A stretch of DNA of 64,000 bases from Paucidesulfovibrio longus DSM 6739 (lineage in GTDB: Bacteria > Desulfobacterota > Desulfovibrionia > Desulfovibrionales > Desulfovibrionaceae). The stretch covers positions 62,001-126,000 of the forward strand of contig NZ_ATVA01000011.1 of the NCBI RefSeq assembly GCF_000420485.1. Reading direction: 5' to 3'. This document shows, in pieces, positions 2,100 through 20,869 of this stretch. The notes beneath the pieces are model-generated. The model was not told where the DNA came from. It saw only the letters and a program-made list of their open reading frames with translations, and searched no databases. A program made the translations under genes and the position numbers. How positions within the stretch are numbered: the first letter of the stretch is position 1; every line of letters begins with the position of its first letter.

Positions 2100-3032
2100 A
2101 CATTGATAATTGTCTGTATTTATTGAATTTGTTAGTATCTTGCCTGAAATACTTGTTTCAAAAATGTTAAAAAATGACAAAAATAGTCTCGCAAAAAATA
2201 AGAGAAAAACAAAATTGTAAATTCTAAAAGATATAAATCTGGCCTTGCTCGAGATATTGTTCGATTATGTAAATATCTTTTAATATTGAGCTGTTATCTT
2301 GGTATTTGCGTGTGGATTGCAATGGGCAACAGGAAGTGGATGCGTTACCGATCTCCGGATTCGAATCATTTCCGTAAAGAACCATTCGTTATGCCGCATC
2401 TTTTTTTGCCTCGAACATTTGTGGCGGCCAACGTGGAGAGCAGTTTGCATTTTGGTTTTTTGTTGATGGAGTTGGCTGATTTTGAGTATAATGTCTGTTT
2501 TATTGTTCGATTATATGCGCGATAGTGGTATGTAGTCATGATTTTGCGCGAATAAATGCGGTAAAATTGTCCGAATAGTCGCAAAATTGCTAGTCCAGAA
2601 CTTTTGCGGCGAATCCGCCAAGCGAGCGCCCAGCCTTGCGGATGCGCGCGTTTGCGTGTTCCTCACGGGCCGGTTCCGCCCTTTGCGGCGGGAAAACCAG
2701 AACGCACGGGCCTGGTCCGGCGTCCGGCAAATATGGAACGGGATCGCTGTCCGCTTCGGTGCGGCGGCAAGTCGAGGCGTGGAGTGGCCAGGCTGTAGCG
2801 TGCGAAGCTGGAGATCTGGATCGGTGGTCGAGGTCGTTGGGCAGGTTTGTCGGGCATGATTGCCGGGCGTGGGCGTTGGGCGGGGGCGGCATGGAAGAGC
2901 GTCGGCGGTTCGTTTTTGCCGGGCTTGGTTCTCCAATGCGTCCGATCCTTTTCTGCCAAGCGGGGCGGACCATTCGGGGCGTGCCGGGGAGCAGGCGTGT
3001 GAACGCTCGTTTCGGCTCGAAGACCCTGTTCT
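2100..3032. other. Long non-coding interval between amtB and the aromatic operon
   Basis: The first half (2105-2590) is strikingly AT-rich for this genome, with A and T runs; the second half (2600-3030) is GC-rich. Several frames are open in the GC-rich half on both strands (up to 170 codons), but their translations are Arg/Pro-rich, none has a good ribosome site with a recognisable product, and all frames are open together, as expected by chance at high GC. The left part probably holds enhancer sites for the sigma-54 promoter. No RNA gene is recognised. Confidence 0.5.
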
Positions 3033-3093
3033 TTGTGACTATTGTGTTCTTTCTAAAAAATGTGTTGACAGTATCGAGGCGTATGAAGTAGCT
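3033..3093 (+). promoter_or_regulatory. Candidate promoter(s) of the aromatic operon
   Basis: Two weak options are visible. TTGTGA at 3033-3038 lies 15 bases before TAAAAA at 3054-3059. A perfect -35 TTGACA lies at 3065-3070, but the hexamer 17 bases on (GTAGCT) is a poor -10, and its start point would fall almost on the leader ATG. The sequence does not decide between them. Confidence 0.35.
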
Positions 3094-3100
3094 CCAAACC

Positions 3101-3193
3101 ATGAACTCCCTCCGTGACCTCGGCGTCTTCGCCTCCTTTTATTTTTGGTATTGGTTTAGCCGCGTCTGCGGTCACGGGAGAGGTACAGCCTAA
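3101..3193 (+). CDS. Aromatic-rich leader peptide of the aro-trp operon
   Basis: A 30-codon reading frame (ATG 3101, TAA 3191-3193) precedes the operon by 111 bases. Codons 13-19 encode Phe-Tyr-Phe-Trp-Tyr-Trp-Phe, a density of the three aromatic amino acids that is very unlikely by chance; Phe10 adds one more. An in-frame TAG at 3089 fixes ATG 3101 as the only upstream start. The ribosome site is weak. The frame overlaps RNA segments that can form alternative hairpins with the terminator at 3220-3253, the arrangement of classical attenuation leaders (trpL, pheL). Here one peptide appears to sense Phe, Tyr and Trp together, matching an operon that makes all three. Confidence 0.85.
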   Translation: MNSLRDLGVFASFYFWYWFSRVCGHGRGTA

Positions 3194-3257
3194 CATACGG
3201 GTTTTGGGTAAATCTCTTCAAAGGGGCCGCAGGCGAAAGCCGGCGGCCCCTTTGTCT
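3111..3257 (+). promoter_or_regulatory. Transcription attenuator of the aro-trp operon
   Basis: Three pairings can be drawn by eye. Segment 1 (CCGTGACC, 3112-3119) pairs perfectly with segment 2 (GGTCACGG, 3170-3177). Segment 2 (3163-3173) alternatively pairs over 11 bases, two of them G-U, with segment 3 (3225-3235). Segment 3 also forms the terminator stem with segment 4: bases 3220-3230 with 3243-3253, plus GGC/GCC around a GAAA loop, followed by a T-rich stretch (TTTGTCTT). 1:2 favours 3:4 (stop); 2:3 prevents it (go). The aromatic codons lie between segments 1 and 2, so a ribosome stalled there would mask 1 and favour antitermination. Confidence 0.82.
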
Positions 3258-3304
3258 TGACGAGCCCCCGGTGCCTGCGGTCCGCAACCTAACGGAGTAG
3301 TGCC

Positions 3305-4102
3305 ATGCACATCGGGAAAGCGATTCGACTTGAGCGGATTTTCAACCGCGACACGGGCAGGACCATCGTGGTGCCCATGGATCACGGCATGACCGTCGGA
3401 CCCATCGAGGGCATCGAGGACATGCGCGAGGCCGTGAGCAGGATCGTGGAAGGCGGGGCCAACGCCGTGCTCGAACACAAGGGCAACGTCCGCTGCGGCC
3501 ACCGGGCCAAGGGCCGCGACATCGGCCTGATCGTTCATCTTTCCGCCTCCACCTGCATGTCTCCCCGTCCCAACTACAAGGGCCTCGTGGCCTCTGTCGA
3601 AGACGCCATCTGCCTCGGCGCGGACGCGGTCAGCGTGCATCTCAACCTCGGCGACGACAACGAGACGGACATGCTGCGCGACGTGGGCCGGGTGGCCACG
3701 GAGTGCAACCGCTGGGGCATGCCCATGCTGGCCATGGTCTACGCGCGCGGCCCCAAGGTCGGCAACGAGTACGATCCAAAGGTCGTGGCCCATTGCGCCC
3801 GCGTGGGCACCGAGCTCGGCGCGGACGTGGTCAAGGTCAACTACACGGGCGACCCCGAAACCTTCTCCAAGGTCACGGACGCCTGCTGCGTGCCCGTGGT
3901 CATCGCGGGCGGACCCAAGATGAACAGCACGCGCGAATTTTTGCAGATGGTGCACGACTCCCTGACCGCAGGCGGCGCGGGCCTTTCCGTGGGGCGCAAC
4001 GTCTTCCAGCACGCCGAGGTGGTCCGGCTGGTCCAGGCCCTGTCCAAGGTGGTCCACGAGGATCTGGATGTGGACGATGCCCTTGCCCTGGTCGAAAAAT
4101 AG
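3305..4102 (+). CDS. 2-amino-3,7-dideoxy-D-threo-hept-6-ulosonate (ADH) synthase, AroA'
   Basis: The 265-residue protein belongs to the class I aldolase family of archaeal ADH synthases. It condenses L-aspartate semialdehyde with a deoxy-ketohexose phosphate, replacing DAHP synthase as the entry to 3-dehydroquinate. Visible signatures are VPMDHGM at 23-29 with the family Asp26, and GADVVKVNY at 172-180 with the probable Schiff-base Lys177. The gene starts the operon just after the attenuator and is followed by its pathway partner, dehydroquinate synthase II. This pair is known from methanogens and Desulfovibrio-type bacteria. A generic fructose-bisphosphate aldolase is the alternative, but the neighbour makes that unlikely. 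Confidence 0.92.
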
Positions 4103-4120: not shown

Positions 4121-5104
4121 ATGAAAAAGATCATCTTCAAGGCCATTCCCTTTGACAAGCATCTGCTGACGCTGGCGCTGGAATCCGGCGTGGACGCGGT
4201 CATGGTCGAGCCGGACCGCGTGGACGACGTGCTCGCGCTGGGCCGGGTCCAGGTCGTGACCGAAACCGAGATGCCGACCCAGGCCGTCAACGAAAAGGCG
4301 GACGAGGAAGAGGCCGTGCGGCGCATGTGCGCCGGGGAAAATATCGTTCTCGCCGAGGGCTGGGAGATCATCCCCCTGGAAAACATCCTGGCCCAGGTGG
4401 CGGACGTGGCCGTGGAAGCGGATTCGCTGAAGCGGGCCAGGCTGGCCGCGGGCGTGCTGGAACGCGGCGTGTCCTGCGTCGTGGTCCTGCCCCAGGCCGC
4501 CGCCGATCTCAAGGCCATCGTATCCGAACTCAAACTCTCGCAGGGCAAGATGCAGCTTTCCAAAGCCACGGTCACGGCCATCGAGCCAGCGGGCCTCGGC
4601 CACCGCGTCTGCGTGGACACCATTTCCATGCTGCGGCGCGGCCAGGGCATGCTCGTGGGCAATTCCTCGGCCTTCACCTTCCTGGTGCACGCCGAAACCG
4701 AATCCAACCCGTATGTGGCGGCCCGGCCTTTCCGGGTCAATGCGGGAGCCGTGCACGCCTATGCGCAGATGCCCGGCGACAAGACTGCGTATCTGGAAGA
4801 GCTGGCCGCGGGCCGCGACGTGCTCATCGTGGACGCGCAGGGCGACACCTCCCTGGCCACGGTGGGCCGGGTCAAGGTCGAGGTCCGGCCCATGCTGCTG
4901 ATCAAGGCGCGGGTGGACGGTCCGGAGGGGCCGGTGGAAGGCCAGGTCTTTTTGCAGAACGCGGAGACCATCCGCGTGGTCCGCGCGGACGGCTCGCCCG
5001 TGAGCGTCGTCACGCTCAAGGAAGGCGACGAGATTCTCTGCCGCACGGACGCGGCGGGCCGCCATTTCGGCATGCGCATCAAAGAGGACATCAAGGAAGG
5101 CTAG
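4121..5104 (+). CDS. 3-dehydroquinate synthase II, AroB'
   Basis: The 327-residue product is a full-length archaeal-type dehydroquinate synthase, which uses NAD to deaminate and cyclise ADH to 3-dehydroquinate. The C-terminal half has the family pattern GMLVGNSSAF (near 184-193), SNPYVAARPFRVNAGAVHAY (near 200-219) and DTSLATVGRVKVE (near 245). It follows ADH synthase by 18 bases and is followed by pheA 2 bases after its stop, so the three are translated together. It replaces the unrelated classical AroB. The genes for the next three steps (dehydratase, shikimate dehydrogenase, kinase) are not in this window. Confidence 0.93.
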   Translation: MKKIIFKAIPFDKHLLTLALESGVDAVMVEPDRVDDVLALGRVQVVTETEMPTQAVNEKADEEEAVRRMCAGENIVLAEGWEIIPLENILAQVADVAVEADSLKRARLAAGVLERGVSCVVVLPQAAADLKAIVSELKLSQGKMQLSKATVTAIEPAGLGHRVCVDTISMLRRGQGMLVGNSSAFTFLVHAETESNPYVAARPFRVNAGAVHAYAQMPGDKTAYLEELAAGRDVLIVDAQGDTSLATVGRVKVEVRPMLLIKARVDGPEGPVEGQVFLQNAETIRVVRADGSPVSVVTLKEGDEILCRTDAAGRHFGMRIKEDIKEG

Positions 5105-5106
5105 CC

Positions 5107-6255
5107 ATGACCAAAAGCAGGGAACAAGATGACATCAGCGGTTGGCGAGGCGGCCAGGGCAAAGCCGGCGACGCGGGCGGGCTCGGCGGGCTGCGCGAGC
5201 GCATCGACTCCATCGACGAGAGCATTCTCGAGCTGCTCAACCAGCGGGCCGAGATCAGCCTCGAGGTCGGCCGCTGCAAGGCGGGATCGGACGACCCGAT
5301 CTTCAAGCCGAGCCGGGAGAAAGCCGTGATCACGAGGCTTCAGGTGCTCAACCCCGGCCCGCTGCCGGACCGCCACCTCTACAACATATACCGCGAGATC
5401 ATGTCCTCGTCGCGCCGTCTCCAGCGTCCGGAGCGCGTGCTCTACCTCGGACCGGAGGGTACTTTTTCCTATTTCGCGGGCATCGAGTACATGGGCCACC
5501 TCGCGGAACTGAACCCCAAGCCGAACCTGGAAGAGATCTTCCGGGCCGTGGCCGAGGGGGAGGCCGAGATGGGCATCGTTCCGCTGGAGAACTCGCTCCA
5601 GGGCACCGTGGGCCAGACCGTGGACCTGTTCATGCGCTACCAGGTCTCCATCCAGTCCGAACTCTACTCGCGCATCAGCCATGCGCTGCTTTCCAAGTCG
5701 CGCACGCTTTCCGGCGTCGCCAACGTGTATTCGCACTCGAATCCGCTGGGGCAGTGCGGCGACTGGCTCCAGGCCAACCTTCCGGACGCGCCGCGCCTGC
5801 CCATGTCCAGCACGGCCGCGGCGGCCCGTCTCTGCCAGACGGACGAAAGCGCTGCCGTGGTGGGCCATGTCCGGCTGGCGGAAATGTTCGGGCTGAACAT
5901 CCTGGCGCAGCACATCGAGGATCTGCCGGACAACTGGACCCGTTTCTTCATCATCGGCTCGCGGGCCTGCCAGGAGCAGCACCGGGACAAGACGTCGATT
6001 CTCTTCACCACGCCGGACAAGCCGGGCGCGCTGGCCAAGGCGCTGGAAATCTTCTCCCGCCGCAGCGTGAACCTGAGCAAGCTGGAATCGCGTCCGTTCC
6101 GGGGCGAGCGCTGGAAATACGTGTTCTTCGCGGACCTGGACTGCGACCTCACGGACCCGGCCTTCGACCCGCTGATCCGCGAGCTGCGCGATCATTGCCA
6201 CACCTTGCGCCTGCTCGGTTCCTACCCTGCCGGGCCGCATCTGGAGGGCGTCTAG
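5107..6255 (+). CDS. pheA: Bifunctional chorismate mutase / prephenate dehydratase (P-protein)
   Basis: The 382-residue protein has an N-terminal AroQ chorismate mutase (about 27-105, LRERIDSIDESILELLNQRAEI pattern), a prephenate dehydratase domain (about 110-285, YLGPEGTFS at 113-121 and the catalytic Thr-Arg-Phe at 278-280) and a C-terminal ACT domain (about 295-370) with the GAL and ESRP (327-330) motifs of phenylalanine feedback binding. It makes phenylpyruvate from chorismate. The ATG at 5107 is two bases after the preceding stop. Residues 1-26 are a polar, Gly-rich extension. The intact ACT domain implies allosteric control in addition to attenuation. Confidence 0.95.
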   Translation: MTKSREQDDISGWRGGQGKAGDAGGLGGLRERIDSIDESILELLNQRAEISLEVGRCKAGSDDPIFKPSREKAVITRLQVLNPGPLPDRHLYNIYREIMSSSRRLQRPERVLYLGPEGTFSYFAGIEYMGHLAELNPKPNLEEIFRAVAEGEAEMGIVPLENSLQGTVGQTVDLFMRYQVSIQSELYSRISHALLSKSRTLSGVANVYSHSNPLGQCGDWLQANLPDAPRLPMSSTAAAARLCQTDESAAVVGHVRLAEMFGLNILAQHIEDLPDNWTRFFIIGSRACQEQHRDKTSILFTTPDKPGALAKALEIFSRRSVNLSKLESRPFRGERWKYVFFADLDCDLTDPAFDPLIRELRDHCHTLRLLGSYPAGPHLEGV

Positions 6256-6256
6256 C

Positions 6257-7630
6257 ATGGAGGGGAATATGGAAATCGTCACGGTTACGGCTCCGGCCTC
6301 CAAGTCCCTTTCGCACCGCGCGCTCATCGCGGCGGCGCTTTCCAGGGGCGAGAGCGTCGTGGAGCAGGCCCTGCAGAGCGTGGACATCGAGATAACGCGT
6401 CACTGCCTGGAGGCCGCCGGGGCCGTGATCGTGGGCAGCGGCCCGGAACTGCGCGTTTCTGGATTCAAGGAAGGGCCGCTCGGCGGCGGCCAGGGCCAGG
6501 ACGCCAAGGGACGGGGAGAACCGATAGACATTTTCGTCAACGAATCCGGAACGTCCTGCCGCCTGCTCACGGCGGTGCTGGCCGCGGGCCAGGGCACCTT
6601 CAAGGTGCACGGCGCGGCGCGCATGCACGAGCGGCCCATCGGCGAGCTGGCCTCGGCGCTGGAAAAGCTGGGCACGCGCTTCCGGTGGCTGGACAAGCCG
6701 GGCTGCCCGCCCTGCGTCATCGAGGCGTCGGGCCTTTCCGGCGGCGAGGTGGAGATCAGCCTGGAGGAATCCAGCCAATACCTTTCCGGCCTGCTTCTGG
6801 CCGCGCCCCTGGCGCGGGGAACCGTGACCATCAGCCTGACCGGGAAGAAAGCCCTGTCCTGGCCCTACGTGGCCCTGACCCTGCGGGTCATGCAGGACCA
6901 CCGCATCGATTTCGAGGTCCAGAGCCTGGACGACGGCGGCGAGTGGGTCGCCGTGCCCTGGCGGGCGCTGAAGAGCGCGGAGCCGGGACGCATCCGCTTC
7001 GTTGTCCGGCCCGGCGAGTACGATGTCGCGGACTACCGCGTGGAAGGCGACTGGAGCAACGGCTCCTACCTGCTGGCCGCCGGGGCGCTCGGCCCCGCGC
7101 CGGTGCGGGTGGAGGGGCTGCACGCGGACTCGCTCCAGGGCGACCGGGCCATCCTGGACATCCTCGGCCAGATGGGCGCGTCCATCAAGACGGACTTCAC
7201 GGGCGTGACCGCCGGTCCTGCCCGGCTGCGGGGCGTTCGCGCGGACATGGGCCGCTGCCCGGACCTCGTGCCCACCGTGGCCGTGGCCGCCGCCTTCGCC
7301 CACGGCGAAACGGTCATCAGCGGGGTGCCGCACCTGCGCATCAAGGAATGCGACCGCTTGGCGGCCATGCGGACGCAATTGTCCCGCGCTGGCTGCGAGA
7401 TCGAGGAAACCGAGGAAGGGCTGCGCATCCTGGGACGGGGGCCGGAAGGCCTGCGGGCCGGGCGGGTCGAGCTGAGCACCTTCGGCGACCATCGCATCGC
7501 CATGAGCCTTTCCCTGCTTGCGTTCGCGGGCGTGGATGTGGTCCTGGACGATCCGCAGTGCGTATCCAAGTCCTACCCGGGATTCTGGCAGGACTGGGCC
7601 ATGGTCGCGCCGAAGGGCGGAAGGGAGTAG
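6257..7630 (+). CDS. aroA: 3-phosphoshikimate 1-carboxyvinyltransferase (EPSP synthase)
   Basis: The 457-residue protein transfers enolpyruvate to shikimate 3-phosphate. Family motifs are KSLSHRAL (16-23), NESGTSCR (95-102, a variant of the usual N-S/A-GT-x-x-R loop), RPIGEL, and HLRIKECDRL towards the C-terminus. A Gly-rich insertion (GGGQGQDAKG) lies before the GT loop. Two starts are possible: ATG 6257, directly after pheA, or ATG 6269, which has GGAGG five bases upstream and would remove four residues; the second looks slightly better. The gene sits between pheA and tyrA, so the common trunk is mixed with the branches. Confidence 0.94.
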   Translation: MEGNMEIVTVTAPASKSLSHRALIAAALSRGESVVEQALQSVDIEITRHCLEAAGAVIVGSGPELRVSGFKEGPLGGGQGQDAKGRGEPIDIFVNESGTSCRLLTAVLAAGQGTFKVHGAARMHERPIGELASALEKLGTRFRWLDKPGCPPCVIEASGLSGGEVEISLEESSQYLSGLLLAAPLARGTVTISLTGKKALSWPYVALTLRVMQDHRIDFEVQSLDDGGEWVAVPWRALKSAEPGRIRFVVRPGEYDVADYRVEGDWSNGSYLLAAGALGPAPVRVEGLHADSLQGDRAILDILGQMGASIKTDFTGVTAGPARLRGVRADMGRCPDLVPTVAVAAAFAHGETVISGVPHLRIKECDRLAAMRTQLSRAGCEIEETEEGLRILGRGPEGLRAGRVELSTFGDHRIAMSLSLLAFAGVDVVLDDPQCVSKSYPGFWQDWAMVAPKGGRE

Positions 7631-7637
7631 GGCGGCC

Positions 7638-8402
7638 ATGCGCGAGAGGTCCATCGGCACCATCAACACCATCGGCATCATCGGCGCGCGGGGACGCATG
7701 GGCACGCTCTTTGCCGGGCGCGCCGTGGCGGCCGGGCGCGGCGTGGTCGGGCTGGACCAGCCTCTGGAGCCCGAAGGGCTGGCCCGCCTCGGCGAGTGCG
7801 GCCTGGTGCTGCTCTGCGTGCCCGTGCCCGCCCTGGGCGAGGTGCTGGAAGCGGTCGCGGCGCACATGAAGCCGGGCACGATCCTTTCCGACGTCTGCTC
7901 GGTCAAGACCCTGCCCATGCGCCGCATGCGCCGCGCCTGGAGCGGACCCGTGGTGGGCACGCATCCGCTCTTCGGCCCGGTCATCCCGGACGGCTTCGAG
8001 CCGCGCGTGGCCGTGACCCCTGCGCAGGGCGACGATCCCGCTCCCGTGCTGGAGCTGCTCGAGGACATGGGCTTCGTGCCGTTCCTGTCCACCGCCGAGG
8101 AGCACGACCGCGCCGTGGCCTACGTGCAGGGCCTGAACTTCATCGGCACCGTGGCCCACCTCGCGGCCATGCGCCAGGTGGAGGGCATCGAGAATTATCT
8201 CACGCCCTCGTTCCAGCGTCGGCTTGATTCCGCGCACAAGATGCTCGTGGAGGACGCGAATCTTTTTGAGACCATTTCCGAATCCAACCCGCAACTCCAG
8301 GAAACCGTGCGTCAGTTCACGGGGTTCCTGAACATCGCCGCGGGCGGCGATCTCGACCTGCTGGCCGAGCGCGCCCGATGGTGGTGGCGTAACGAGTCCT
8401 GA
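7638..8402 (+). CDS. tyrA: Prephenate dehydrogenase
   Basis: The 254-residue protein has an N-terminal NAD-binding Rossmann fold (GIIGARGRMG, residues 13-22) and the prephenate dehydrogenase pattern VVGTHPLFGP, where His and the following loop contact substrate. It converts prephenate to 4-hydroxyphenylpyruvate for tyrosine. It lacks a fused chorismate mutase and any ACT domain and resembles the dehydrogenase half of the E. coli T-protein. The start ATG 7638 is seven bases after aroA. The next gene, trpE, follows only after 135 bases, the largest gap in the operon. Confidence 0.92.
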   Translation: MRERSIGTINTIGIIGARGRMGTLFAGRAVAAGRGVVGLDQPLEPEGLARLGECGLVLLCVPVPALGEVLEAVAAHMKPGTILSDVCSVKTLPMRRMRRAWSGPVVGTHPLFGPVIPDGFEPRVAVTPAQGDDPAPVLELLEDMGFVPFLSTAEEHDRAVAYVQGLNFIGTVAHLAAMRQVEGIENYLTPSFQRRLDSAHKMLVEDANLFETISESNPQLQETVRQFTGFLNIAAGGDLDLLAERARWWWRNES

Positions 8403-8537: not shown

Positions 8538-9945
<1,408 letters not shown>

Positions 9946-9965
<20 letters not shown>

Positions 9966-10533
9966 CTTCGATTCCTTCACCTTCAATCTGGTGCAGGCCT
10001 TCCAGCAGCTGGGGGCCGACCCCGTGGTGCTGCGCAATGACCGGGAGGAGCTTCTGGACCCGGACTTCGCGGCGAAATGCGGGCGCGTCTGTCTTTCGCC
10101 CGGCCCCAGCCACCCGGACAACGCCGGGTATTGCCTACGTTTTCTGGACAATCTGCCCAAGCGCACCCCGCTTCTCGGAGTCTGCCTGGGGCACCAGATC
10201 CTGGGCCGCTTCGCCGGAGCCGTGGTCAACCGCAACGAGCGGATCATGCACGGAAAGACCTCGCCCGTGGAGCACGAGGGCAAGGGCATCTTCGCCGGGC
10301 TGCCGCAGCCCTTCGAGGTCTGCCGCTACCACTCGCTGGTGGTGCGGCCCGAAGGAGCCGACCTGCTGAAGATCACGGCCCGCACCGCCGAGGGCGAGGT
10401 CATGGGGCTGGAATATGCGGACAGGCCCTGGCACGGAGTGCAGTTCCACCCGGAATCCATTCTCACGCCGGACGGGCCCATGCTGCTCGACAACTTTTTG
10501 AAGATTTCGAAATCACAGGGGGGAGAGAAATGA
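9946..10533 (+). CDS. trpG: Anthranilate synthase component II (glutamine amidotransferase)
   Basis: The 195-residue class I amidotransferase supplies ammonia to TrpE. The nucleophile is Cys80 in LLGVCLGHQ, and the His168/Glu170 pair lies in VQFHPES. The chosen ATG 9946 starts the family-typical sequence MFLLIDNFDSF and has a GGGAGG site; an upstream in-frame GTG is not needed. It overlaps trpE by 20 bases and trpD by an ATGA junction. Confidence 0.95.
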
Positions 10534-11528
10534 AGATCACGGTAGCGCAAGTGCTGGAACGCCTGCTTGAGGGCAAGGCGCTTTCGGACGACCAGGCGGA
10601 TTTGATGTTCGATCGTCTGCTTTCGGGCGAACTGGGACAGGCGGCCGCGGGCGCGTTCCTCATGGGCCTGCGGGCCAAGGGCGAGGATTCCACGGATCTG
10701 GCCGCGGGCGTCCGCGCCGGGCTGGCCCACGCCCGGCAGATCCCCGGCCTTTCCGGCCCGCGCATCGACACCTGCGGCACGGGCGGCGACGGTCAGCACA
10801 GCTTCAACTGCTCCACGGCGGTGTCGCTCTTCCTGGCGGACATGGGCCACAAGGTGGTCAAGCACGGCAACCGCGCCGTGTCCTCGTCCTGCGGCAGCGC
10901 GGACGCGCTGGAAGCCCTGGGCGTGAGCCTGAACACCGAGCCGGAGGACGTGGCCGGGGCGCTGGAGAGCAGCAATTTCGTGTTCCTCTTCGCTCCCGCC
11001 TACCATCCCGCCTTCAAGCACATCGCCCCGGTACGCAAGGATCTGGGCATCCGCACGCTCTTCAACTTCATGGGTCCGCTGCTGAACCCGGCCCGGCCCA
11101 CGCACCAGCTCCTGGGGGTGAGCGACCCGGACAAGCTCAACCTCATGGGCGAAACCCTGCTGCTCACGGGCGTGCAGCGCGCCCTGCTGATCCACGGGGC
11201 CGGAGGCTTCGACGAGCTGACCACCTTTGGCCCGGCGCGCGGCTACTTCATCGACAAGGGGCGCATGGACAAGACCGTGGTCGATCCGGATCGGCTCGGC
11301 TTTTCGCGCTTCTCGCCGGAGGCCGTGGAGGTGGACGGCAAGGACGAGGCCGTGGCCGTGCTGCGGGACATCCTCCAGGGCAAGGGACCGGAGGCCATGA
11401 TGCAGATGGTGGCCCTGAACCTCGCGGCTTGCCTGCACATCCTCGGAGAAGGGGAGCTGGAGCAGTGCTCGGCCACGGCGCGCGAATACGTCAAGGGCGG
11501 CCTGCGGAACGGAGTCGTGTCATGCTGA
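10530..11528 (+). CDS. trpD: Anthranilate phosphoribosyltransferase
   Basis: The 332-residue protein transfers phosphoribosyl from PRPP to anthranilate. The phosphate-binding Gly-rich loop CGTGGD (82-87) and the KHGNRAVSSSCGSAD segment (near 110-124) are intact. Its ATG 10530 overlaps the trpG stop (ATGA), with GGGGGGAGAG upstream. It is a separate gene, not fused to trpG as in enteric bacteria. Its end overlaps trpC by seven bases. Confidence 0.96.
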   Translation: MKITVAQVLERLLEGKALSDDQADLMFDRLLSGELGQAAAGAFLMGLRAKGEDSTDLAAGVRAGLAHARQIPGLSGPRIDTCGTGGDGQHSFNCSTAVSLFLADMGHKVVKHGNRAVSSSCGSADALEALGVSLNTEPEDVAGALESSNFVFLFAPAYHPAFKHIAPVRKDLGIRTLFNFMGPLLNPARPTHQLLGVSDPDKLNLMGETLLLTGVQRALLIHGAGGFDELTTFGPARGYFIDKGRMDKTVVDPDRLGFSRFSPEAVEVDGKDEAVAVLRDILQGKGPEAMMQMVALNLAACLHILGEGELEQCSATAREYVKGGLRNGVVSC

Positions 11529-12292
11529 ACCGTTTTCGCGAGGCCAAGCAGGCGGAAATTGCCGCGCTGCGGGCGCTTTCGGAGCGCGGGGAAATGCCCC
11601 GCGCCTGGTACGGACACCGCCCGCCCTTTGCGGCGCGGCTGCGCAGCCGCGGTCCCGCGGCGCTCATCGCCGAGTTCAAGCGCGCCTCGCCCAGCATGGG
11701 CGACCTGAACCTGGAACTCGGACCGCGCGAGGCCGCGATGCTCTTCGCCGCCAACGGCGCGGCAGCCATGAGCGTGCTCACCGAGGAGACCCACTTCAAG
11801 GGCAGCCTGGACTATCTGGGCGCCTGCGCCGGGGAGGCCCTGCCGCTCCTGCGCAAGGACTTCCTCTTCGACACGCTTCAGGTGGCGGCCACCGCCGCCA
11901 CCCCGGCCTCGGCCTACCTGCTCGTGGTGCGGATGTTCCCGGAGGGCGAGCAGCTGCGCGAGATGATCGAGACCGGGCGCGCCCTGGGGCTGGAAGCCGT
12001 GGTGGAGATATTCGACGAGCGCGACCTGGAGCTGGCCCGACAGGCCGGAGCCGAGATCATTCAGGTCAACGCCCGCGACCTGGACACCCTGGAGGTGGAC
12101 CACGGCAACGTGCGCAGGCTCATCAGCCAGGGCAGGCCGAGCGAGCTTTGGATCGCGGCCAGCGGGGTTTCCACCCCGGAGCAGGTGCGCGAGGCCGCCG
12201 AGGGCGGCTACGACGCCGTGCTCGTGGGCACGGCCATCATGACCTCCGACGATCCGGGCGCGGTGGTCCGCTCCCTGGCGGAGGCAAGGTGA
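11522..12292 (+). CDS. trpC: Indole-3-glycerol phosphate synthase
   Basis: The 256-residue TIM-barrel enzyme closes the indole ring. Conserved patterns are FKRASPSMGDL (a variant of the usual IKRxSPSxG), LLRKDFLFD with the catalytic Lys, VEIFDERDLELA, and VNARDLDTLEVD, where the family usually has INNRDL. It is monofunctional, about the size of other unfused TrpC proteins, and is followed by trpF overlapping by four bases (GTGA). The start overlaps the end of trpD. Confidence 0.93.
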   Translation: MLNRFREAKQAEIAALRALSERGEMPRAWYGHRPPFAARLRSRGPAALIAEFKRASPSMGDLNLELGPREAAMLFAANGAAAMSVLTEETHFKGSLDYLGACAGEALPLLRKDFLFDTLQVAATAATPASAYLLVVRMFPEGEQLREMIETGRALGLEAVVEIFDERDLELARQAGAEIIQVNARDLDTLEVDHGNVRRLISQGRPSELWIAASGVSTPEQVREAAEGGYDAVLVGTAIMTSDDPGAVVRSLAEAR

Positions 12293-12948
12293 ACGCCCTC
12301 CTGGTCAAGATCTGCGGCCTGACCAGCGTCCGCGACGCCGAGGCCTGCCGCGACGCGGGCGCGGACCTGCTCGGATTCATCTTCCACCCGGCCAGCCGCC
12401 GCAACGCGGCACCGGAGATGGTCCGGGCCGTGCACGCGGGCAAGGCCCGCAAGGTGGGCGTGTTCGTGGAGCAGGGGCCGGACGAGGTCGCGGCCCTGGC
12501 CGAGGCGGCGGGATTGGATTTCGTGCAGTTGCACGGCGGGCAGGACGAGGCGTTTTGCGCGGCGCTCGGCGCGGAGTTCGACCCCGGGCGCATCGTCAAG
12601 GTCTTCTGGCCGGAACGCTACGCCGCCGTCGCGGAGCTTCAGCCCGACCTGGACCGTTTCGCCGCGCATTGCAGCTATTACCTCTTCGACGCGGGCACGA
12701 GCGGCGGCGGGCACGGCAAGAGCTTCGACGCCGGGCTGCTCGCGGGCATCGCACCCGCGCGGCCCTGGCTGCTCGCGGGCGGTCTCGGACCGGACAACGT
12801 GGCCCAGGCGCTTCTGGCCGGGCCGCATGGCGTGGACATGAGTTCCGGCGTGGAATCCGCGCCCGGAACCAAGGATATGGAAAAAGTCCGCCGGGTCATC
12901 CGGCTGGTACGCAACGGCGCGCCGGGCCGACCGGCGGATGCGGAATAA
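12289..12948 (+). CDS. trpF: Phosphoribosylanthranilate isomerase
   Basis: The 219-residue protein has the TrpF N-terminus VKICGLTSVRDAEAC with the catalytic Cys, GFIFHPASRR, VQLHGGQDE, and the C-terminal LLAGGLGPDNV and GVDMSSGVE motifs. It isomerises phosphoribosylanthranilate to the deoxyribulose form used by TrpC. The start is GTG 12289, overlapping the trpC stop, with GGAGG five bases upstream. An upstream extension is open but has no family similarity. Confidence 0.93.
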   Translation: MNALLVKICGLTSVRDAEACRDAGADLLGFIFHPASRRNAAPEMVRAVHAGKARKVGVFVEQGPDEVAALAEAAGLDFVQLHGGQDEAFCAALGAEFDPGRIVKVFWPERYAAVAELQPDLDRFAAHCSYYLFDAGTSGGGHGKSFDAGLLAGIAPARPWLLAGGLGPDNVAQALLAGPHGVDMSSGVESAPGTKDMEKVRRVIRLVRNGAPGRPADAE

Positions 12949-12957
12949 GGAGCAACC

Positions 12958-14121
12958 ATGAAAAAAGGGTATTTCGGCGACTTCGGCGGGCAATTCGTGC
13001 CCGAACTGCTGATGCCGCCGCTGCTGGAGCTGGAAGAGGCTCTGGAGAATATCGTCGCCACCGAGGAATTCCACGACGAGCTGACCGCGATCCTTCAGGA
13101 TTACGTGGGCCGCCCGTCGCCCATCACCCTCTGCAAGAACCTCTCGACCCAGCTGGGCCTGGACCTCTGGCTCAAGCGGGAAGACCTCAACCATACGGGC
13201 GCCCACAAGGTCAACAACACCATCGGGCAAGCCCTGCTGACGAAGCGCATGGGCAAGACGACCCTGCTGGCCGAAACCGGCGCGGGCATGCACGGCGTGG
13301 CCACGGCCACGGCCGCCGCGCTCCTGGGACTGAAATGCGTGGTCTACATGGGCGCGGTGGACGTGGAGCGCCAGAACGTGAACGTGCGGCGCATGGAGCT
13401 GCTCGGCGCGGAAGTGGTGGCCGTGCAGTCCGGCACCCGGACCCTCAAGGACGCCATCAACGCGGCCATGCGTCGCTGGATCGCGGACCAGAAGGACACC
13501 CACTACTGCTTCGGCACGGCGGCCGGGGCGCACCCCTTCCCGCTGCTCGTGCGCAACTTCCAGGCCGTGATCTCGCGGGAGGCGCGCCAGCAGTTTCTGG
13601 ACAAGAACGGCAAGCTGCCGGACGTGGTCGCGGCCTGCGTGGGCGGCGGTTCCAACGCCATCGGCATGTTCCACCACTTCGTGCCGGACGCTTCCGTGCG
13701 CATCGTGGGCGTGGAGGCCGCTGGCACGGGCGAGCCGGGCTGCTACAATTCCGCGCCGCTGAACCTGGGCACGGACGGCGTGCTGCACGGCATGGTCACC
13801 AAGTTGCTCCAGACCAAGGACGGCCAGATCATGCCGTCGCACTCCATCTCCGCCGGGCTGGACTATCCGGGCGTGGGACCGGAACACGCGCAGCACCACG
13901 CTTCGGGCCGCGTGCACTACGGCATGTGCAACGACGCCCAGGCGCTGAACGCCTTCCTGACCCTCTCGCGCACCGAGGGCATCATCCCGGCGCTGGAAAG
14001 CTCCCACGCCGTGGGCTGGGTCATGGAAAACGCCGAGGAACTCAAGGGGAAATCCGTGCTGGTCTGTCTTTCGGGCCGGGGCGACAAGGACATGGGCATC
14101 GTGGAGGACTATCTCAAATGA
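12958..14121 (+). CDS. trpB: Tryptophan synthase beta chain
   Basis: The 387-residue PLP enzyme condenses indole with serine. The PLP lysine is K84 in LNHTGAHKVNN, and Glu106 in LLAETGAGMHG is the catalytic acid of the family. VGGGSNAIGMF forms the phosphate loop. The length is normal for TrpB1. It begins nine bases after trpF with an AAGGAG site and overlaps trpA by four bases, consistent with alpha2-beta2 assembly. Confidence 0.97.
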   Translation: MKKGYFGDFGGQFVPELLMPPLLELEEALENIVATEEFHDELTAILQDYVGRPSPITLCKNLSTQLGLDLWLKREDLNHTGAHKVNNTIGQALLTKRMGKTTLLAETGAGMHGVATATAAALLGLKCVVYMGAVDVERQNVNVRRMELLGAEVVAVQSGTRTLKDAINAAMRRWIADQKDTHYCFGTAAGAHPFPLLVRNFQAVISREARQQFLDKNGKLPDVVAACVGGGSNAIGMFHHFVPDASVRIVGVEAAGTGEPGCYNSAPLNLGTDGVLHGMVTKLLQTKDGQIMPSHSISAGLDYPGVGPEHAQHHASGRVHYGMCNDAQALNAFLTLSRTEGIIPALESSHAVGWVMENAEELKGKSVLVCLSGRGDKDMGIVEDYLK

Positions 14122-14885
14122 GCGCACCCGCAGACAAACTCACCCAGCGTATCGAAGAGGCCAAGGCCAAGGGCCGCCCGGCTCTTGTCCCGTTCCTGCC
14201 CGGCGGCTATCCCGAAAAGGAAACCTTCTGGCAGGAGCTGGTCGGCCTGGACACCAAGGGCGCGGCGATCATCGAGATCGGCATGCCTTTTTCCGACCCC
14301 GTGGCCGACGGCCCCGTGGTGGAGCGGGCCTCGCTGAAGGCCCTGGAAAACGGCGTGAACCTGGAATGGATTCTCACGGAACTCAAAAAACGCGACTTCC
14401 GCGCCGGCATCGTGCTCATGGGCTACCTCAACCCCGTGCTGCAATACGGGCTTGAGCGTTTCGCCAAGGACGCCGCGGCAGCGGGCGTGGGCGGGGTCAT
14501 TCTCGCCGACCTGCCCCACGAGGAGTCCGACGCTGTCCGCGCCGCGCTCGACGCCGAAGGCATCGCCCTGATTCCGCTCGTGGGCCTGAACACCAGCGCC
14601 GAGCGCATGGCGCTCTACGCCAAGGACGCCAAGGGCTTCGCCTATTTCGTGTCCGTGCTCGGCACCACGGGCGCGCGCGAATCCCTGCCCGCCGAGGTCC
14701 GCGCCCAGTTGGAGCTGGCCCGGTCCATCTTCGACGTGCCCCTGGCGCTGGGCTTCGGGCTCAAGCACCCGGACCAGCTCAAGGAGCTTGCCGGACTGGT
14801 GGACGCGGCCGTGTTCGGCTCCGCGCTCATCGCGCACATCGACGACGGCGGCACCGTGGGCGAGTTCATGGACCGCTGGAGATAG
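14118..14885 (+). CDS. trpA: Tryptophan synthase alpha chain
   Basis: The 255-residue TIM barrel splits indole-glycerol phosphate to indole. The catalytic pair is E53 (IIEIGMPFSDP) and D64 (VADGP). GYLNPVLQYG and LGTTGARESLP are also family-typical. ATG 14118 overlaps the trpB stop (ATGA). It is the last gene of the aro-trp operon and is followed by a hairpin at 14897. Confidence 0.96.
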   Translation: MSAPADKLTQRIEEAKAKGRPALVPFLPGGYPEKETFWQELVGLDTKGAAIIEIGMPFSDPVADGPVVERASLKALENGVNLEWILTELKKRDFRAGIVLMGYLNPVLQYGLERFAKDAAAAGVGGVILADLPHEESDAVRAALDAEGIALIPLVGLNTSAERMALYAKDAKGFAYFVSVLGTTGARESLPAEVRAQLELARSIFDVPLALGFGLKHPDQLKELAGLVDAAVFGSALIAHIDDGGTVGEFMDRWR

Positions 14886-19573: not shown

Positions 19574-20869
19574 ATGGCAGGCAAATATCGTTTCATTCCG
19601 GAGATGAGCGAGGAACAGATCGCGGACGTTCAGCTGGAAGGGCTGAGGTGGACCGTGGCCCATGCCGCCCAGGGCAGCGAGTTCTACGCCGCGCGCCTGC
19701 GCGAGGCCGGGGTCGAGCCGGGCGGCATCGCCAGCCTGGATGATCTGCGCGGCCTGCCCTTCACCACGGCCGACGACCTCAAGGAAGGCTACCCTCTGCC
19801 GCTGCTTTCCGTGCCCGAGAGCGACGTGGTGCGCATCCACGGCTCCAGCGGAACCACGGGCAAGCGCAAGATTCTCTCCTATACGCAGGACGACATCGAT
19901 ACCTGGAAGGACATGTTCGCCCGCTGCTACGAGCTGGCCGGACTGACCACGCTGGACCGCGTGCAGATCTGCGTGGGCTACGGCCTCTGGACCGCGGGCG
20001 CGGGCTTTCAGCTCGGCTGCGAGCGCTTCGGAGCCATGGCCCTGCCCGTGGGGCCGGGCCTGCTCGACATCCAGCTCCAGATTCTCGAAGACCTCGGCAG
20101 CACGGTTCTGTGCTCCACGGCGTCCATGGCCCTGCTCATGGGCGAGGAGGTCCAGAAGCGCGGACTGGCCGGGAAGATCAAGCTGCGCAAGGCCATCTTC
20201 GGCGCGGAGGCGCACACTCCCAAGATGCGCAGGCAGTTCGAGGAATCCCTCGGCCTGGAGGACAGCTTCGACATTTCCGGCATGACCGAGCTCTACGGCC
20301 CCGGAGCGGGCCTGGAATGCAAGGCGCACAACGGCATCCACTACTGGGCCGACCTCTACATCGCGGAAATCCTCGATCCGGAGACGCTGTTGCCCGTGGC
20401 GCCCGGCGAAGTGGGCGAGCTTGTGGTCACCTCGCTGCGCAAGCAGGCTTCGCCCCTGATCCGCTACCGCACCCGCGACCTGACCCGGCTTTTGCCGGGG
20501 CGCTGCGAATGCGGCTGCGCCATGCCCCGGCACGACAAGATCATGGGCCGCTCCGACGACATGTTCATCTTCCGGGGCGTGAACATCTATCCCGGACAGA
20601 TCGCCTCGGTCATCGAGCATTTTCCGGAACTGGCCTCGGAATACCAGATCGTGCTCAGTAGGCGCGAGGGGCTCGACTACATGCTCGTGCGCGTGGAGCG
20701 CCTGCCCGACATTCCCGGCGACAACGACGCCAACCTCGCCAAGGCCCTGTCCGACGAAATCCGCAGGCATATTCTCGTGCGCACGCAGGTCGAGGTGCAA
20801 AAGCCGGGCGCGCTGCCGCGCAGCTTCGCCAAGACCAAGCGGGTGCAGGACGACCGGAGCGAAGACTAG
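19574..20869 (+). CDS. Phenylacetate-CoA ligase family AMP-forming enzyme
   Basis: The 431-residue adenylate-forming enzyme matches PaaK: HGSSGTTGKRK near 93-103 is the ATP loop, followed by YGLWTAGAGFQLG, GMTELYGPG (a GMTE motif), IRYRTRDL and GRSDDMFIFRGVNIYP. It should activate an aryl acid, such as phenylacetate, to its CoA thioester. In Desulfovibrio-type bacteria such enzymes are common alone and the substrate is often indolepyruvate-derived or unknown. The start has AAGGAGAGA. It is a single gene; no paa genes or indolepyruvate oxidoreductase lie next to it, so the substrate stays open. Confidence 0.85.
   Translation: MAGKYRFIPEMSEEQIADVQLEGLRWTVAHAAQGSEFYAARLREAGVEPGGIASLDDLRGLPFTTADDLKEGYPLPLLSVPESDVVRIHGSSGTTGKRKILSYTQDDIDTWKDMFARCYELAGLTTLDRVQICVGYGLWTAGAGFQLGCERFGAMALPVGPGLLDIQLQILEDLGSTVLCSTASMALLMGEEVQKRGLAGKIKLRKAIFGAEAHTPKMRRQFEESLGLEDSFDISGMTELYGPGAGLECKAHNGIHYWADLYIAEILDPETLLPVAPGEVGELVVTSLRKQASPLIRYRTRDLTRLLPGRCECGCAMPRHDKIMGRSDDMFIFRGVNIYPGQIASVIEHFPELASEYQIVLSRREGLDYMLVRVERLPDIPGDNDANLAKALSDEIRRHILVRTQVEVQKPGALPRSFAKTKRVQDDRSED

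Follow-up and report, generated by a model that had tools for sequence, protein, structure and literature searches.

How a single operon leading to phenylalanine, tyrosine and tryptophan is regulated, and whether one small open reading frame in front of it could report on the supply of all three amino acids, is the question that this locus raises. Comparison strongly supports a single ribosome-mediated attenuator whose codons cover Phe, Tyr and Trp and whose stems exclude one another; we put the probability that it pools the supply of the three amino acids, on an RNA with a probable leaderless start, at about 0.9. The window (the whole analysed stretch of 64,000 nucleotides) comes from a 3.7 Mb genome and carries the following genes, in the order adhS, dhqS2, pheA, aroA, tyrA, trpEGDCFBA and all in one direction:

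3305–4102, + strand: adhS, 2-amino-3,7-dideoxy-D-threo-hept-6-ulosonate synthase (TIGR01949, above cut-off)
4121–5104, + strand: dhqS2, 3-dehydroquinate synthase II (NF002628, above cut-off)
5107–6255, + strand: pheA, chorismate mutase / prephenate dehydratase / ACT (Pfam)
6257–7630, + strand: aroA, EPSP synthase (TIGR01356, above cut-off)
7638–8402, + strand: tyrA, prephenate dehydrogenase, start codon uncertain (PF02153, above cut-off)
8538–9965, + strand: trpE (best match TIGR00564, below its cut-off)
9946–10533, + strand: trpG (TIGR00566, above cut-off)
10530–11528, + strand: trpD (TIGR01245, above cut-off)
11522–12292, + strand: trpC (PF00218)
12289–12948, + strand: trpF (best matches phosphoribosylanthranilate isomerase, below cut-offs)
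12958–14121, + strand: trpB (TIGR00263, above cut-off)
14118–14885, + strand: trpA (PF00290)

The preliminary description of this DNA had spoken of a complete aromatic operon of 12 genes; the 12 genes are there, but 'complete' is too strong because aroC, aroD, aroE and aroK are missing from them. A search for TrpR as an alternative regulator found no match in the window's genome. At some of the related loci compared below (L036, L038, L047, L049, L053, L061, L062, L068, L071, L097, L193 and L195), the operon is headed by tandem adhS genes.

Upstream of adhS lie the elements of the candidate attenuator:

3101–3193, + strand: leader ORF, 30 codons plus stop (ATG at 3101, stop at 3191–3193)
3112–3119, + strand: segment 1, CCGTGACC, pairs with 3170–3177
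3137–3157, + strand: regulatory codons FYFWYWF (TTT TAT TTT TGG TAT TGG TTT), assigned from sequence and comparison
3163–3177, + strand: segment 2, coding; core 3164–3172 pairs with segment 3, and 3170–3177 with segment 1
3225–3235, + strand: segment 3, 5' arm of the terminator; core 3226–3234, with A3231 pairing with T3167
3219–3254, + strand: intrinsic terminator 3:4, with mismatch A3231–G3242, followed by TCTTGACG

The leader reported in the preliminary description, with FYFWYWF at codons 13–19, is present in the sequence as claimed (translation: MNSLRDLGVFASFYFWYWFSRVCGHGRGTA), and so are the 2:3 and 3:4 pairings. In 2:3, the stretch 3163–3173 (CGTCTGCGGTC) forms 11 pairs, two of them G-U, with 3225–3235 (GGCCGCAGGCG). 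The 3:4 hairpin (−31.3 kcal/mol, with the single internal mismatch noted above) ends just before the first gene, adhS. The proposed 1:2 pairing holds as far as complementarity goes, 3112–3119 being the exact complement of 3170–3177 (GGTCACGG), but folding support for it is mixed. In folding, the region 3160–3260 surpassed all 200 shuffles (z −4.10), and the longer region 3085–3275 surpassed 195 of 200 (z −2.28). At Rfam gathering scores the window matched neither the amino acid leader models (Trp_leader and others) nor the T-box model, and the latter gave no match up to E 5 at 3060–3310; the five matches up to E 5 in that region were weak and to unrelated RNAs, none of them an amino acid leader.

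To place the leader among its relatives, stretches around dhqS2 were taken from 60 of the 181 genomes of the window's family with a match, and 39 further dhqS2 loci of the order were added, 27 from five other families and 12 from the window's own family, these 12 mostly from trp-lacking genera chosen on purpose. With six further contigs and the window itself this gave 106 loci, of which L033 and L034 were dropped as copies of L040 and L064. Upstream regions were tested for a small ORF with at least six aromatic residues in eight codons. By this measure an aromatic small ORF precedes adhS-dhqS2 in 92 of 102 Desulfovibrionales upstream regions (two of which, L038 and L071, are the same contig). 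The reverse strands gave one such ORF, and dinucleotide shuffling, repeated 10 times, gave 0.5 on average; the aromatic run predicted to be conserved in relatives is thus conserved. Once copies and loci lacking a called leader had been set aside, the comparison comprised 95 leaders, drawn from 46 genera in six families of the order, and a terminator lies between leader and operon in all 95. Nine of the 106 loci gave no leader at the threshold, namely L036, L037 (archaeal), L038/L071, L077, L078, L180, L192 (at a contig end) and L195; weaker aromatic ORFs (four in eight) are found at L038/L071, L180 and L195.

The leaders extend beyond the order. Among 57 genomes with dhqS2 from other orders of Desulfobacterota, 40 loci were analysed; 26 have an aromatic leader, each followed by a terminator, and 14 gave none. 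Beside these 26 leaders trpE was not seen; trp genes do occur at L250, with trpBA upstream of adhS, and downstream at L257, which has 263 nt upstream and no called leader. Many of the terminators after the aromatic leaders of these orders (L227–L266) are of a GCCGTGG type.

Within the run, F, Y and W replace one another from leader to leader, which points to tRNA supply rather than to a fixed arrest peptide. The Phe and Tyr codons of the 95 runs mostly end in U (TTT for 266 of 299 Phe, TAT for 160 of 231 Tyr), opposite to the usage in adhS of the same loci (TTT 90/390, TAT 88/351); this bias may reflect slower wobble decoding, an unpaired loop, or both. A leader with such a run, three aromatic amino acids side by side, is very probably an attenuator that pools the supply of Phe, Tyr and Trp.

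The W content of the run appears to vary with the genes behind it. Where the operon holds trp genes (63 leaders), every leader has F, Y and W, with means of 4.48, 2.86 and 1.63; where it lacks them (25 leaders), F and Y persist and W averages 0.84, being present in 21 and absent from four. Six leaders at contig ends and that of L089 were excluded from this comparison. Averaged by genus, W is 1.72 with trp genes and 0.71 without (34 and 9 genera; p 7e-5). On the tree the link between W and trp genes goes in the expected direction but, with three independent starred pairs, this test is underpowered and not significant. These figures bear on the most serious alternative, a Phe/Tyr attenuator whose Trp codons play no part in sensing, so that Trp shortage is no trigger. 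That F and Y outnumber W even before trp-holding operons, that they persist where trp genes are lacking, and that the leaders outside the order are F/Y-rich, with W absent from 10, single in 13 and double in three of 26, would all suit such a device; the presence of W in every one of the 63 trp-holding leaders, together with the genus means, makes it unlikely, and we prefer an attenuator that counts all three residues.

The best evidence for a switch comes from the antiterminator. An antiterminator that excludes the terminator, as expected of a ribosome-mediated attenuator, was found in the 87 of 95 leaders that could be anchored (8 could not be), a count that leans towards pairing because the best-pairing candidate was chosen. 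Segment 2 is coding and starts 0–12 nt past the last aromatic codon, at 6 nt in 60 of the 87. The best 2:3 helix scores 25.3, versus 16.8 for shuffled segment 2 regions, 4.3% of which reach the score of their own leader. In 61 genus-distinct rows, 539 of 549 core-pair cells are formed, compared with 525.5 (sd 1.9, maximum 533 in 5000) when partners are permuted.

The signal is clearest at the fourth of the nine core pairs, which is a standard pair in all 87 anchored leaders (U-A in 61, C-G in 15, U-G in seven, A-U in four) and in 61 of 61 genus-distinct rows, versus 49.8 on permutation (sd 1.5, maximum 55 in 5000). In the window it is U3167-A3231, and in the congener L039 it is A-U. The segment 3 base of this pair is mismatched in the terminator stem of 71 of the 87 leaders, so that covariation in those leaders cannot come from the terminator. 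Compensatory change in the stems, which the preliminary description had proposed to look for, is therefore present in 2:3, and gives the alternative fold unusually clean support. Changes at the fourth pair alter the leader residue, mostly among Cys, Arg and Ser, which indicates that the RNA is kept and not the peptide. This is hard to reconcile with nascent-peptide arrest, in which the peptide would sense a small molecule as in TnaC: the C-terminal part of the peptide does look conserved (e.g. ACG or ARG), but its changes track base pairing and the run residues swap among F, Y and W, leaving this explanation very improbable.

Leaders of related design stand before other aromatic genes. We examined 30 trpE loci from 40 genomes that were selected because their aro operon lacks trp genes or may lack them. 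The leaders of these separate trpE loci have three W in six codons in 26 cases and two W in three, the remaining locus having just 214 nt upstream; for three W, reverse strands gave none and shuffles a mean of 0.25, and two W occurred in four reverse strands. All 29 Trp-run leaders are followed by a terminator. For 18 of the 30 the aro locus was examined and lacks trp genes; among these 18, the leader shows three W in six codons in 17 cases and two W in the remaining case. The Trp-run leaders and terminators of this set (L129–L158) include, for example, that of L139, MNSFSNTISNSFKGWWWRIQLRGGDVRA.

The opposite extreme is a leader with Phe as its sole aromatic residue. The window's own genome has two examples. 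One (MNTRIRNAFFFSFFFFRCACGLGVSL; L267:460–540, C15 near 19659–19739), followed by a terminator, precedes an adhS paralogue that stands alone; the other (MKTTQLGHNFFSFFFFFIFTLACGLEGTV) precedes a sodium-solute symporter, leader and symporter region together lying at C11 291828–293812:

L271:1829–1918: Phe-only leader preceding a symporter accessory protein and the symporter
L271:2218–3816: sodium-solute symporter region behind this leader

The Phe-only leaders of the window's genome are built like the F+Y+W leader, with its segment 2 and terminator motif, and one genome thus holds leaders of both kinds. Phe-rich leaders precede the symporter in four of five other genomes (L273, L274, L275 and L277, not L276), two of them also holding Y or W. 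From its leader, the symporter is predicted to transport phenylalanine or a related compound.

With these sister leaders in view, the usual Trp attenuator with incidental Phe and Tyr codons, for which the trp genes of the operon and the WxW-like spacing of the window's run might speak, appears still less probable than peptide arrest: separate trp operons use Trp-run leaders of their own, and aromatic leaders in which W is scarce or absent precede operons without trp genes (25 leaders, four of them with no W). Least probable of all is that the ORF arose by chance ahead of an ordinary terminator, or encodes a small protein with no part in control: the leader recurs far above the reverse-strand and shuffle controls, with 2:3 covariation and with a terminator in 95 of 95 cases.

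On the release step, the preliminary description had cautioned that the stop codon lies beyond segment 2, and this proves both right and general: when segment 2 was sought without restriction over the whole stretch between the leader start and segment 3, the top site fell past the run but ahead of the stop in all 87 anchored leaders. The stop begins 7–28 nt (median 15) past the segment 2 core, and the median distance from the stop to segment 3 is 30 nt, so that a ribosome halted at the stop would stand between the two segments. For the candidate 1:2 pairing, the mean energy is −26.8 kcal/mol versus −20.2 for shuffles. In 31 of 95 leaders it is better than in every one of 40 shuffles (2.3 expected), with 15.9% of codon-shuffled segment 1 regions matching or beating the energy of their own leader. 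The overlap of 1:2 with the segment 2 core in 87 of 87 says little because the searched region was short.

When the ribosome was modelled as a wall standing in the run, the 2:3 value averaged over the codons exceeded 0.5 in all 87 leaders. Mean values were 0.98 for a ribosome at the first aromatic codon and 0.43 at the last (above 0.5 in 20 of 87), where the ribosome would mask part of segment 2, and late codons may therefore signal poorly. With the ribosome at the stop, 1:2 exceeded 0.5 in 50 of 87 leaders and was 0.14 in the window; the zero 2:3 at this position is built into the model and hence is no evidence. Ribosome-free RNA ending after segment 3 favoured 2:3 (above 0.5 in 72 of 87, versus 11 of 87 for 1:2), so that without translation the operon might be read unless 1:2 has a kinetic advantage, and naked full-length RNA favoured the terminator (above 0.5 in 85 of 87). 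We would therefore assign release chiefly to the terminating ribosome, with 1:2 in a supporting role.

A feature that the preliminary description did not mention is a predicted promoter that ends shortly before the leader ATG:

3065–3070, + strand: −35 element TTGACA of the predicted promoter, assigned by comparison
3089–3094, + strand: putative weak −10 element TAGCTC, 18 nt after the −35 element

A generic promoter scan of 2700–3500 found none and missed the weak −10 element, so that the window promoter is recognised solely by comparison. The pattern used (TTGACA in at least five of six positions, 16–19 nt, then TA, with the −10 element ending 4–9 nt before the leader ATG) is found in 57 of 95 leaders, which span 33 genera in five families. 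Composition shuffles gave a mean of 1.0 and a maximum of five; with the anchor slid by at least 6 nt the pattern was left in at most 13 leaders. A pyrimidine (C or T) directly precedes the ATG in 91 of 95 leaders, including all 57 with the promoter pattern. A Shine-Dalgarno-like motif precedes three of these 57, versus 21 of the other 38, whose promoter often lies further upstream. The predicted transcription start in the window is the A of the ATG at 3101, and the leader transcript would probably be leaderless.

The attenuator pooling Phe, Tyr and Trp supply could then operate as follows. RNA polymerase would start, probably, at the A of the leader ATG, and ribosomes would load on the leaderless 5' end. 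A shortage of any one of the three charged tRNAs would halt the ribosome in the FYFWYWF run, keeping segments 1 and 2 apart; 2:3 would pair, the terminator would be blocked and the operon would be read. When all three are plentiful, the ribosome would pass the coding segment 2 to the stop and there separate segment 2 from segment 3, while 1:2 could re-form behind it; with 2:3 barred, 3:4 would form and transcription would end. In a wider reading, to which we give somewhat better than even odds as a whole, one attenuator design serves throughout Desulfobacterota as a tunable gauge of aromatic amino acids, mostly leaderless in Desulfovibrionales and released, unusually, by the terminating ribosome as a barrier between segments 2 and 3, its codon mix suited to each target: F+Y+W before aro-trp operons, mostly F/Y where trp is lacking, a Trp run before separate trp operons, and Phe only before the lone adhS and the symporter.

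An attenuator at this place has been listed before. Table 7 of a 2005 study gives, from an automated database, a putative attenuator before D. vulgaris aroA'>aroB'>aroQ-pheA>aroF>tyrA>[trp operon] (Song et al., 2005, PMC1173090). Gene order and place are the same and the device is probably the same, although the entry, as given in that table, names no leader peptide, codons, covariation or distribution. The accessible text of a study treating Rfam leaders, including those of Desulfovibrionales, holds nothing on this operon (PMC3766115), and the open literature yielded neither a description of the leader peptide nor a three-aromatic leader; an earlier description may exist in the subscription literature, which this search did not cover. 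The locus would be a clear natural example of a single sensor that follows all three products of a branching pathway, in a group whose aromatic pathway has an unusual beginning, with adhS and dhqS2. Different codon mixes before different targets in one genome, together with the Trp-run leaders of separate trp operons, allow a direct test of codon-operon matching, and the Phe-only leaders provide a substrate prediction for the symporter and point to a role for the adhS paralogue.

In the trpL, pheL and hisL leaders of E. coli, codons for the product amino acid lie in a short ORF, followed by exclusive 1:2, 2:3 and 3:4 stems with a terminator before the first gene. The leader described here likewise has product-cognate codons, an intrinsic terminator, a 2:3 stem that excludes it and a candidate 1:2 stem, but places three aromatic amino acids in one run and its codons between segments 1 and 2. 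In trpL the ribosome at the stop covers segment 2; here segment 2 is coding, the stop lies 7–28 nt past its core, between segments 2 and 3, and the start is probably leaderless. In Sinorhizobium meliloti trpL, as given in the accessible part of one report, the RNA likewise begins at the ATG of the leader ORF, but the operon is a Trp operon, the peptide has 14 residues, and RNA and peptide also act in trans (PMC7298713). Ribosome-mediated attenuation itself is classical. The ilvGMEDA leader of E. coli reads Ile, Val and Leu. Its peptide has 15 branched-chain residues among 32, according to the accessible part of one account (PMC6123439), so that the preliminary statement limiting the classical leaders to no more than two amino acids is incorrect. 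The pathway and the bacterial group differ; in both cases, one leader stands before genes for several end products of a branched pathway.
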